Source: Candidatus Stahliibacteriota bacterium
GTDB taxonomy: Bacteria; Hydrothermota; Tepidihabitantia; SM23-42
Direction: 5' to 3'
Assembly (NCBI GenBank): GCA_030602565.1
Contig: JAUVZL010000012.1
Coordinates: 1-55,148, forward strand
Length of the DNA: 55,148 nucleotides
This document shows, in pieces, positions 49,922-54,692 of the stretch. The translations under genes and the position numbers were made by a program. How positions within the stretch are numbered: position 1 is the first letter of the stretch; every line of letters begins with the position of its first letter. The notes below the pieces were generated by a model. It was not told where the DNA came from. It did not search any database and was given only the letters and a program-made list of their open reading frames with translations.

Positions 49922-50677
49922 TCATTGTCCGACCTTCCTGAATTTCTTCGGAAACCCAGCATTTCTGAAATCTTCTTTATCTACATAAATGCATATATCT
50001 TCTATGCCTCTAAGTCTTATCGATTTTTCAATGTAATTGTGTTTTTTTGGACCACTGCCCAAGACTATATCCGAATGCGCAATGAAAGGAATCTTTCTGT
50101 CAAACTTAACTAACCGTGAGGCAATATTGATGCTTTCTGATATATAATCAGTTCTTTCGTTGTCTCTAGTATATCTAACTGCATGTCCCAGTGATAATCC
50201 AACTTTCAGCTGTTTTGGATATTTTATTCTCCACCTCGCGCCGATTTTTTTATTGAATTCCGGCAAGAACTCATCCTCATAGGAATCCCTCGCCGATACA
50301 ATATTCCAACACAAATTCATAATGGCGATTATGTCAACGTTGGATAGCTTCTGCCTACCAAGTTCCCATACCATCAAAACTCCGTCGCCCATGAATTTTG
50401 AAAATATTGGCCACCACTTGTCTTCTTTAAACCGATAAGAGAACCAATACAGTAGTCCATTTATGAACGAAGTGACAACTAGTTCTTTGTTAACAGAAAT
50501 GCTATGGAAGAATCGCGTGAAGCCCATCAAATCAAATATTGCAACAACAATCTTTATTAAATCAGCCCCCTCATATCCTAAATCAATGAAAGGATTCTTG
50601 TTAACTACCCTCCCCTGTTGGATTGACAATACAAATTCTCGCTTGTCAATTCTATTTACTCCTTTTTGCCTCTTCAT
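49922..50677 (-). CDS. Class III nucleotidyl cyclase-like protein, 251 aa (Pycsar-like)
   Basis: It is a lone cyclase domain. Metal aspartates appear as D49 (IFDLMGFTRFF) and D98 (KFMGDGVLMVW), and the transition-state Asn/Arg as N184 and R188 (SINIASRL). It has no membrane or sensor domain. A small membrane protein is encoded 98 bp upstream, the layout of Pycsar defence systems (pyrimidine cyclase plus membrane effector). The base-selecting residues differ from adenylyl cyclases, so the product is unknown. AAGGAGG lies 2-5 nt before the ATG. Confidence 0.75.
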   Translation of the reverse strand: MKRQKGVNRIDKREFVLSIQQGRVVNKNPFIDLGYEGADLIKIVVAIFDLMGFTRFFHSISVNKELVVTSFINGLLYWFSYRFKEDKWWPIFSKFMGDGVLMVWELGRQKLSNVDIIAIMNLCWNIVSARDSYEDEFLPEFNKKIGARWRIKYPKQLKVGLSLGHAVRYTRDNERTDYISESINIASRLVKFDRKIPFIAHSDIVLGSGPKKHNYIEKSIRLRGIEDICIYVDKEDFRNAGFPKKFRKVGQ

Positions 50678-50775: not shown

Positions 50776-51336
50776 TCAATTTTTCCTAATCGAAAATATT
50801 TTTTCAATTATTTGGAACCCACCGAGCTCAACTGAAGACAGAATTGCATGTACCGTAACGGCAAGCGCAAAGGCTGCAAGTGCTAAAACGCATAACAGTA
50901 AAACACATTTGGGGTCATCCGGTATGAATTTCCCCCAGGGCAACAAAAAGAGACTAAGTATTATTATGCTTCCATTTAATATTAAAGTTCGTTTAAGCCA
51001 TTGCGAAATCCCTTTTCTAAGCCGATCGCTATTTTGGACATTTTGATGGATTCTATCTTTCCTGTCAGCCATATCTCCTACGCCCCCTTTGCCTAATGCC
51101 CAATTAAGCAAATAATCTTCAGTCCATCGGTTTTGTTCGGAAACAGCTGCTTCTTTCTTCCAGTTTTCATTCTTTATCATCTCTTCTAATCTAAGATTGG
51201 AAAGTTTCTTGGTCAATTCTGCACGTTGGTTCTTCAGAGCTTGAAGCTTAAAAATAACAAAAACTGCGCTCAGCGCGATGATTGCGGCAAACGATTGAGC
51301 AATAGCACTCAGTGTATAGAAATAACCATCACCCAT
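50776..51336 (-). CDS. Small membrane protein, candidate cyclase-partner effector, 186 aa
   Basis: Three hydrophobic helices are visible at about 8-29, 116-134 and 143-165, with a charged coiled-coil-like stretch (EELTKKLSNLRLEEMIKNEN-like) between the first and second. Pycsar systems use small membrane effectors of similar size, but I could not match the known effector domain. It precedes the cyclase gene and follows a 68-codon ORF by 6 bp. Confidence 0.65.
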   Translation of the reverse strand: MGDGYFYTLSAIAQSFAAIIALSAVFVIFKLQALKNQRAELTKKLSNLRLEEMIKNENWKKEAAVSEQNRWTEDYLLNWALGKGGVGDMADRKDRIHQNVQNSDRLRKGISQWLKRTLILNGSIIILSLFLLPWGKFIPDDPKCVLLLCVLALAAFALAVTVHAILSSVELGGFQIIEKIFSIRKN

Positions 51337-52887: not shown

Positions 52888-53202
52888 TTATGTTTTTTCT
52901 AGCTTGCCATCAAAGCATTGTTTTTCAACTACACCATTTGTACCGAACTCTATGTACAAACCAAACTTATATTGAAGTGGTTTTTTTCTAAATGCTTTTA
53001 ATTTCTTCAAATCGAAATCTTTAGTAGATTTATTTATGATTTTTTTAATCTCAATCACAAGTAAATTATTTTCTGTGCCTCTATGATGAATAATAATGTC
53101 AGGATAAACAGTCTTTGCTGTTGTGTCATCTGATTGCAGATTTTCGATATCTAAATTCAATTTCTTCGTGATGAATTCAGTATCCATATTTTTATTTTTC
53201 AT
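52888..53202 (-). CDS. Putative PD-(D/E)XK nuclease-like protein, 104 aa
   Basis: YPDIIIHHRG (Asp35) and LLVIEIKK (Glu51, Lys53) show the PD-(D/E)XK core seen in short nuclease-like proteins. The family is usually longer at the N-terminus, so this may be a shortened copy. A TATAAT at 53206-53211 lies only 3 nt before the ATG at 53202; the ATG at 53187 may be the true start. It lies just downstream of structured RNA A. Confidence 0.6.
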   Translation of the reverse strand: MKNKNMDTEFITKKLNLDIENLQSDDTTAKTVYPDIIIHHRGTENNLLVIEIKKIINKSTKDFDLKKLKAFRKKPLQYKFGLYIEFGTNGVVEKQCFDGKLEKT

Positions 53203-53284
53203 CCTATTATACTCACAATCGACTCATTCAATTCTAACCAACACCACCAATAAAGTCAAGCCTTAAGCCTTGTTGATCCAAACA

Positions 53285-53313
53285 CCCCGTTAGAGTCTCC
53301 GCCTCTAACGGGG
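53285..53313. repeat. CCCCGTTAGAG/CTCTAACGGGG hairpin
   Basis: Perfect 11-bp arms with a 7-nt loop, located right after the U-rich end of RNA A. Related CCCCGTT...AACGGGG elements are at 26247-26308 and 41220-41245. On the plus strand it is followed by A-runs, not T-runs, so it is not a normal terminator. Confidence 0.7.
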
Positions 53314-53314
53314 T

Positions 53315-53454
53315 AAAAAAAAGGCATAGCCCCTTAACCACTAAACACACGTAGATACAGTTAAGACAACTACACCTCTGTGGATTTTTCTCAGTCTGCT
53401 ACTTAGTTGAAAAATCCATCATACCCGTTCTGTCTCCAGAACGGCTCTCATACC
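53315..53454 (-). ncRNA. Structured RNA A, ~140 nt, downstream of the sigma gene
   Basis: Read leftward, transcription starts at 53454 and ends in eight U (53322-53315). Predicted helices: P1, 5' GGUAUG (53454-53449) with 3' UAUGCC (53328-53323); P2, 8 bp with a GAGA loop (53425-53444); P3, 9 bp GGAUUUUUC/GAAAAAUCC (53382-53390, 53409-53417) with an 18-nt loop; P4, GUGUAG/CUACGU (53370-53375, 53349-53354). A possible pseudoknot joins UUAAC (53360-53364) and GUUAA (53334-53338). The second copy is RNA B. No family recognised. Confidence 0.75.
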
Positions 53455-53460
53455 AATAGA

Positions 53461-53488
53461 ATTGTATATATTATTTATTAGATGTCAA
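53461..53488 (-). promoter_or_regulatory. Promoter of RNA A
   Basis: Minus strand: TTGACA (53483-53488), 16 nt, TACAAT (53461-53466), start 7 nt later at 53454, the first base of P1. Confidence 0.8.
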
Positions 53489-53506
53489 GAGACTTAAGAC
53501 TTGTTT

Positions 53507-54424
53507 CTACCGCCTAATTCTTCGTTTATTCTTATTATGAAATACTATCACTTTCAATTTCTCCAATGCGTGATTTCTGATTTGTCTAACCCGTTCGCGT
53601 GAAATGTTCATTACATTAGCTGTATCCTGCAATGTATGCTTTTCATAATCTCCCAAGCCGTAATTAAGCATTATGACTTCTCGTTCCCGAGTCTCTAATC
53701 TGAACAGAGCTCGTAACAATTTCTCCTTTCGTAATTTCTTCATATGCACAATATCAAGAGGAGGTGAAAATAGGTACTCGTCGTGATCAATGTCAAAATG
53801 CTCGGGCTCTTTACTGAAATCCAGCTGCTCCTCAGGGATATCCCTATCTAAGTGCTGATAGATTTCATCGAGTGAATATGTCGGCAGTAATTCGGTGCGT
53901 GCGGCAATCACCTTGTGTTCTTCGACCTCAAGGAGTTTTGACAATTCTTTATCCGTTGGTTCATATCCATTTTTCTTGATGAATTTAGCGATCTGACTTT
54001 GTATCTTTTTTGCTAAATAGCTTTTCGGCAATATACTGCGATCTGTAGCTATTGCAGCCTGTATTGCTCGTTTTATCCACCATTGACCATACCAATAAAA
54101 CCTGACTTTTTTTCGCTCGTCATACTTTTGGGCAGCATGTATTAGTCCTTCATTACCAGCATTAATCAAATCCAATAAGGGTAATCCACTGTTTTCATAT
54201 CGCTTCGCTATCGTCACGACAATTCTCAGGTTGGAGCAAACAAAGCGCTCAAGAGCGCTTTCATCATGATTCTTTCTGATTCGTCTCGCGAGTTCAAATT
54301 CCTCTTCCCTGGTCAGTATTGGATATTGTTTGATTTCTTTCATGAATTGCGAAAGCCTTCCTTTTCTGGTAAGTTTTATGCGCTCGAATAGAAAATGAAG
54401 TTGACGTATGCGTTTTTTTAACAT
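53507..54424 (-). CDS. Primary-type (sigma-70 family) RNA polymerase sigma factor, 305 aa
   Basis: Directs RNA polymerase to promoters. Regions 1.2-2 (ILTREEEFELARRIRKNH, YENSGLPLLDLINAGNEGLIHAAQKYD, WYGQWWIKRAIQAAIA), region 3 (EPTDKELSKLLEVE), and region 4 (EREVIMLNYGL, TLQDTANVMNISRERVRQIRNHALEKL) are present. It lacks a long 1.1 arm and the family end is basic (NKNKRRIRR). ATG 54424 has GAAGAGGGAG upstream. It lies between the two copies of the structured RNA, 97 nt from RNA B. Confidence 0.92.
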   Translation of the reverse strand: MLKKRIRQLHFLFERIKLTRKGRLSQFMKEIKQYPILTREEEFELARRIRKNHDESALERFVCSNLRIVVTIAKRYENSGLPLLDLINAGNEGLIHAAQKYDERKKVRFYWYGQWWIKRAIQAAIATDRSILPKSYLAKKIQSQIAKFIKKNGYEPTDKELSKLLEVEEHKVIAARTELLPTYSLDEIYQHLDRDIPEEQLDFSKEPEHFDIDHDEYLFSPPLDIVHMKKLRKEKLLRALFRLETREREVIMLNYGLGDYEKHTLQDTANVMNISRERVRQIRNHALEKLKVIVFHNKNKRRIRR

Positions 54425-54520
54425 ATCTATACACTCCCTCTTCTGACACTTGAACCTTTGTATCTGCGTGTTTTGTTATTATCCATAAATACCCTTATTA
54501 GTCAATAATCCTCTTCAAGC

Positions 54521-54658
54521 AAAAAGGCATAGCCCCTTAACCACGAAACACACGTAGAAACAGTTAAAGCAACTACACCTTTGTGGATTTTTCTAAAATC
54601 AATAACCTGCTTGAAAAATCCATCATACCCGTTCTGTCTCCAGAACGGCACTCATACC
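54521..54658 (-). ncRNA. Structured RNA B, ~138 nt, upstream of the sigma gene
   Basis: Read leftward from 54658 to 54521 (five U at the end). P1: GGUAUG (54658-54653) with UAUGCC (54531-54526). P2: CCGUUCUG-GAGA-CAGAACGG (54629-54648). P3: GGAUUUUUC/GAAAAAUCC (54585-54593, 54613-54621), loop differing fully from copy A. P4: GUGUAG/CUACGU (54573-54578, 54552-54557). Possible pseudoknot UUAAC/GUUAA (54563-54567 with 54537-54541). Stem identity with loop divergence supports an RNA function. It could also serve as the sigma-gene leader if not terminated. Confidence 0.75.
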
Positions 54659-54664
54659 AATAGA

Positions 54665-54692
54665 ATTGTATACATTATTTATTGGATGTCAA
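54665..54692 (-). promoter_or_regulatory. Promoter of RNA B
   Basis: Minus strand: TTGACA (54687-54692), 16 nt, TACAAT (54665-54670), start at 54658. Confidence 0.8.

Follow-up and report, generated by a model that had tools for sequence, protein, structure and literature searches.

A Repeated Promoter-Terminator Leader Ahead of Defence-Type and Other Accessory Genes in Ca. Stahlbacteria: A Candidate Transcription Attenuator

Introduction

Why should two nearly identical structured RNAs, each apparently transcribed from a promoter of its own, lie on either side of a sigma factor gene? The question is raised by a 55,148-nt stretch of DNA from a member of Ca. Stahlbacteria (WOR-3), referred to below as the window, whose minus strand carries two direct 138-nt units (54658-54521 and 53454-53317) with a 305-aa sigma gene between them. 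A first-pass annotation of this DNA regarded the two copies as a sigma-linked regulatory RNA pair. Here, the units are traced through related genomes, and their sequences point to a different and, in our judgment, probable role as cis-acting, promoter-proximal attenuators, with early termination as the default, placed before horizontally acquired or defence-type genes.

Results

Two units, each with a promoter, a terminator, and a downstream gene

The two direct copies of roughly 140 nt that had been described around the sigma gene are clearly present, and are 93–96% identical to each other once the P3 loop is set aside. All of the features that follow are on the minus strand. The upstream unit (54521..54658), a long variant and one of nine full copies found in three species, is preceded by promoter P1 (54665..54692) and contains the P2 hairpin CCGTTCTG-GAGA-CAGAACGG (54629..54648), the P3 hairpin GGATTTTTC...GAAAAATCC (54585..54621), whose loop is variable and which resembles dispersed double hairpins of related genomes, and a terminator hairpin with its U-run (54523..54582). 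A second promoter, TTGACT-N16-GATAAT (54478..54505), lies 5′ of the sigma gene, and its homologous segment adjoins HicAB in genome G011. The gene itself (53507..54424), the cargo of the upstream leader, encodes an extra sigma-70 family protein with Pfam regions 1.2, 2, and 4. The downstream unit (53317..53454), also of the long variant, has its own P1 promoter (53461..53488) and terminator hairpin (53320..53379), followed by an extra hairpin read from the sequence, CCCCGTTAGAG...CTCTAACGGGG (53285..53313), similar to hairpins near other copies, and by a second promoter, TTGACT-N17-TAGAAT (53231..53259), whose TTAAGGCTTGAC can be found at three places in the genome, all of them right after an RNA copy or remnant. 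The cargo here is a 104-aa PD-Lambda-3_A-like defence protein (52888..53202; PADLOC PDLC03986, E 6.5e-20, profile positions 78-150 of 159 covered).

The P1 sequence reported for both copies, TTGACA-N16-TACAAT, was confirmed and agrees with the consensus at 11 of 12 positions, and both units end in the U-run of an intrinsic terminator. Fold z-scores against shuffles were -3.6 and -4.1. The description of a structured RNA with its own promoter and of no known family also holds, as Rfam covariance models at the gathering score (among them 6S, SRP, RNase P, tmRNA, riboswitches, and abiF, RF03085) gave 0 matches in the window, and the region around the units gave just two sub-threshold matches (E 3.8 and 8.9). 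The window also encodes, at 49922-50677 and 50776-51336, what may be a cyclase-like protein and, next to it, a small membrane protein; the pair might represent a signalling-type defence system, but had no Pfam match.

Sigma is only one of many cargo genes

Blast searches with the unit found four full copies and one 3′ remnant in the same genome and five more full copies in sister species (three in one and two in another), with no copy of the long unit in a third sister species. The mean identity of the nine full copies is 94%, and none outside the window pair has a sigma gene beside it. Copies elsewhere stand before genes of restriction, toxin-antitoxin, or other kinds, with neighbours that include a C5 methyltransferase/HATPase/Vsr cluster, HicAB, a metallo-beta-lactamase-like gene, and genes of unknown function. 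The units are not sigma-specific, and the proposed pairing with sigma does not survive. More than 40 other sigma matches in 22 family genomes likewise had no unit on their contigs, with genomes that do possess units carrying them on separate contigs. Two sigma factors, an RpoD of about 525 aa and a second protein of 280 aa, are encoded in nearly every family genome. The window's protein is a third one that was seen in this genome alone, and it shares about 47–55% identity with the 280-aa protein of relatives. A covariance search of related genomes, suggested earlier as a check, did return matches with wobble and a few compensatory changes, but no recurrent sigma neighbourhood.

The homology was also said to span exactly one transcription unit, which is not always the case, as several long copies share an upstream flank and a second promoter a short way downstream. 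This second promoter follows most long copies, and the unpaired regions, too, are highly conserved across all nine. Both features would suit a multicopy trans-acting small RNA, in which the terminated RNA is the product and downstream genes use their own second promoters. The unit remnant in the window's genome (G000:C53:7222-7246, L008) has had its 5′ part swapped for unrelated sequence with a large palindrome; G010 has an intact copy that the remnant matches in the 3′ arm, the second promoter, and the cargo.

A 17-bp terminator stem is kept in every long copy

The helices claimed to be conserved fared unequally. The stems of P2 (8 bp, with a GNRA loop that is either GAGA or GCGA) and P3 (9 bp) are essentially invariant among the nine copies, and for this reason exhibit no covariation. 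In contrast, the P1/P4 scheme loses pairs in two copies. The UUAAC/GUUAA segments, previously proposed to form a pseudoknot, nest instead within a 17-bp terminator stem (AGGUGUAGUU...UUAAC / GUUAAG...GGCUAUGCCU) that is intact in nine of nine copies, with six pairs varying, each on one side only. This stem, with UUAAC/GUUAA as nested pairs, is also the minimum-energy fold of the window units. The fold combining helix P1, a short P4, and the pseudoknot was dropped, as the 17-bp stem is better kept. In eight of the nine long copies a 5′ GGUAUG could pair with the terminator's 3′ arm as a possible alternative, antiterminating structure, although over 6 bp rather than 17.

Short relatives share the promoter, 5′ arm, and terminator

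Covariance searches exposed short relatives of the form TTGACACGGAGCGAAT..., GGAGAAGGTATG, hairpin, CATACCTTTTT, commonly with an ORF and its Shine-Dalgarno sequence 20–60 nt further on. The layout of the wider family consists of a promoter with a 16-nt spacer, a transcript start, GAGAAGGUAUG as the 5′ arm of the terminator, a closing ...YRUACC-U-run, and a same-strand gene, and in the short form the terminator hairpin begins no more than about 10 nt from where transcription is inferred to start. Thirty-four units were tabulated. P1 could be scored in most of these (a few remnants or units with weak promoters lack it), the 16-nt spacer occurs in every related unit with a scored P1, and a same-strand ORF lies downstream in nearly all of the 34. 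The tabulated hairpins all fold (32 of 32), with interiors that are unrelated in sequence yet paired. In a set of 25 diverse short units, the 5′ arm GAAGGTAYG hardly changes and the 3′ arm stays complementary to it, the outer stem being 98.5% paired, against 31–73% in slid controls, with one pair occurring as UA in 15, UG in eight, and CG in two. When long and short forms were aligned together, the long sequences being joined across the insert for alignment purposes only, all 11 sequences retained the terminator stem with 100% pairing, and ten of its pairs varied. Both sides of a pair seldom changed together, so that covariation proper is limited, and the case for stem conservation is made from wobble-conserving change and rewritten interiors. 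By comparison of the two forms, the window's long form probably arose from the short one via insertion of the P2 and P3 double hairpin, and the weak helix P1 of the first-pass annotation is probably a vestige of the original base pairing.

Pattern searches gave 22 matches against one for the reversed pattern, and 64 against three, with some matches being plain gene starts or lacking a promoter. The GAGAAGGUAUG motif indeed also occurs as a plain Shine-Dalgarno sequence with a start codon. Matches in G014, G015, and G017 and at L179 and L207 were discarded as ordinary gene starts, and those in G007, G019, G021, and G027 for want of a promoter. Matches to model R1 in G003, G007, G018, and G020, and one in G022, were P3-like dispersed hairpins and not units.

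About 15 of the 34 tabulated units, both window copies included, have a second promoter between the terminator and the gene, often 21–29 nt past the U-run. Two architectures can therefore be distinguished: the gene in such units need not depend on read-through, and the leader may not be its sole source of mRNA. Many other units have the ORF and its Shine-Dalgarno sequence 20–60 nt downstream with no scored second promoter, which speaks against a trans-acting RNA, as does the fact that the short relatives share just the promoter, the 5′ motif, and a hairpin with a rewritten interior, and would thus offer little targeting sequence.

Distribution within the phylum

With model R3, units were recorded in 14 of the 23 genomes of the family, representing 10 of its 11 genera, with some of the weakest matches doubtful on reading. 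Extending the search to 147 genomes of the phylum added just two carriers, both from distant families and with one copy each (G143:C15, L233, and G128:C301, L234), one of them before an OLD-family gene. These are closely similar short units, and may reflect transfer or misbinned contigs. A viral origin was considered and set aside, as the hairpin pattern gave 0 matches in IMG/VR.

Three further arrangements were seen. At L055, L058, L049, L082, and L234, and thus in several genomes, a conserved 23-codon ORF (MEAEIAVLFFIIMVNYKRNNYAK) follows the leader but is joined to differing genes, as would result from an exchange of cargo downstream of it. A tandem arrangement at G005:C92:18527 (L098) consists of a leader, a second promoter, another terminator-like hairpin, and a GIY-YIG gene. 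Finally, three units (L096, L102, and L234) have a dispersed hairpin (CAATTTTA...TAAAATTGGTA) immediately upstream of the promoter; two of these units belong to the family and the other to a distant one.

Leaders stay with orthologous genes and precede unrelated ones

Several kinds of cargo retain a leader in more than one genus: sigma-54 activators in genomes G000, G010, G011, and G005 (two genera), ORF6N proteins in G011 and G008 (two genera), a 95-aa repeat protein in G006, G007, and, by resemblance, G011 (three genera), and a 190-aa membrane protein in G005 and G012 (two genera). Between the leaders of such orthologous or homologous genes the hairpin differs, and the element is kept 20–50 nt from the start codon. 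The sigma-54 activator alignment fits the G005 hairpin poorly, and no pairs were counted on it. Retention of the leader by orthologous genes in different genera points to a function exerted on the downstream gene, and is better explained by a cis-acting leader than by a trans-acting RNA, which we regard as improbable.

The same observations bear on whether the units might be dispersed promoter-terminator elements that merely spread with, or insulate, recombining gene cassettes and have no regulatory role. One leader type is found with different cargo, and one cargo gene is preceded by the leader in G000 and not in G011; a remnant adjoins other repeat sequence, and closely similar single copies occur in two distant families, all of which would be expected of such an element. 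However, the wobble and occasional compensatory changes have kept the hairpins long after their interiors diverged, the ortholog sets hold the unit at its 20–50 nt distance, and a promoter before the terminator would be needless for an insulator. A purely dispersed element is therefore unlikely.

The defence cargo recognized by PADLOC or Pfam is diverse. It comprises a KAP NTPase (QatA-like), PDC-M11A, HsdM, a C5 MTase, a REase-II-like HATPase, Cas10d, GIY-YIG-RAMA (PDC-S14), CAP12-TIR (PDC-S35), REase II with EVE, OLD, DitA, SIR2, TIR-TPR, AbiU2, and HicAB, in addition to the window's PD-Lambda-3_A. Non-defence cargo includes the sigma gene, sigma-54 activators, and NHL-repeat secreted proteins. 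At 1e-10, PADLOC matched 12 of 27 scanned first genes against two of 20 random genes from the same genome (p 0.02), a modest and selection-prone enrichment, the scanned genes having been hand-chosen by the analyst; taken over all ~50 units (12/~50 versus 2/20), it is not significant.

With toxin-like cargo present (HicAB, AbiU2 HEPN, and PIN), it might be supposed that the RNA is an antitoxin that inhibits the downstream protein, as in type III toxin-antitoxin systems or RCd22-AbiF, with the terminator setting the ratio of RNA to mRNA. The order of promoter, structured RNA, terminator, and gene is indeed that of RCd22-AbiF (PMC12373285). On the other hand, near-identical RNAs precede sigma, methyltransferase, GIY-YIG-like, MBL-like, and other genes, and one RNA could hardly bind all of their products; neither an Rfam abiF match nor a tandem repeat array was found. 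An antitoxin function is thus highly improbable, and the occurrence of the same leader before unrelated genes favours an attenuator.

Discussion

A proposed mechanism

As attenuators, the units would operate in a simple manner. A sigma-70-type promoter would run straight into an intrinsic terminator ahead of a same-strand gene, such that most transcripts would be expected to end at about +50 in the short form or +138 in the window form. The short RNA would then be abundant and downstream expression from the leader promoter low, and anything that blocked hairpin formation would raise expression. Apart from the 6-bp alternative pairing of the long copies, no antiterminator fold or sensor domain was found in the units. 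Our guess is that binding of a ribosome or protein at GAGAAGGUAUG would be the likeliest route to antitermination, as this sequence forms the 5′ strand of the short hairpin and at the same time resembles a Shine-Dalgarno sequence. Many units also have ORFs of 9–10 codons that start in the 5′ arm and are preceded by a Shine-Dalgarno-like GGAGAAGG. A leader peptide as a required part was rejected, as the AUG is replaced by ACG or AUA in several units. It is conceivable, if rather doubtful, that a shared antitermination signal sensed at the 5′ GAGAAGGUAUG unites many unrelated defence systems of Ca. Stahlbacteria into one regulon that is released together, e.g., when phage infection alters translation or RNA polymerase.

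Significance and comparison with known systems

To our knowledge, the known controls of defence genes are mostly system-specific repressors. The leaders described here bear on how a large and costly defence repertoire is kept silent yet ready in bacteria, in that many of the genes behind them may share one kind of transcription brake. That one leader type recurs before Cas10d, type I/II restriction, toxin-antitoxin, TIR, SIR2, and OLD genes points to a generic brake moving together with defence cargo, and its clear sequence signature could be used both for testing and for finding new defence genes.

Like integron attC sites and REP-like repeats, the units are dispersed hairpins beside exchangeable genes; unlike them, they possess promoters and U-runs. 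An attC identity was rejected from the core sequences, as the R′ core GTTRRRY (paired with RYYYAAC) would be expected, and the long units have GTTAAGG and the short ones GCTAAGG or GTTAAGG.

Classical and leader-peptide attenuators of the trp and pyrBI type have a promoter-proximal intrinsic terminator in the leader of biosynthesis genes. The units share this terminator, together with the promoter and same-strand gene of an attenuator leader, and in many cases a short ORF that starts in the 5′ arm. They differ in that the short ORF is lost in some units, no antiterminator was found, and the cargo is of defence or accessory type. In the termination/antitermination control of Tn916, a terminator close to an end of this single element is reported to serve as an insulator (PMC11658703). 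Tn916 is similar in that terminators restrain genes of acquired DNA, and differs in that the present leader is repeated ahead of separate genes.

The sole close match found in the literature on such leaders before defence genes is RCd22-abiF of C. difficile, where a Sigma-A-type promoter, a 132-nt structured RNA, and a Rho-independent terminator precede a same-strand defence gene (PMC12373285). Most transcription halts at that terminator, which was shown experimentally to cut read-through into the defence gene, and RCd22, with two abiF motifs (RF03085), forms a type III-like system and binds its own AbiF protein (PMC12373285). The architecture of the Ca. Stahlbacteria leaders is the same. In contrast to the type III and AbiF systems, where the RNA is specific to one toxin family, unrelated cargo stands behind nearly the same RNA here, and a single leader type with no Rfam match precedes dozens of unrelated genes.
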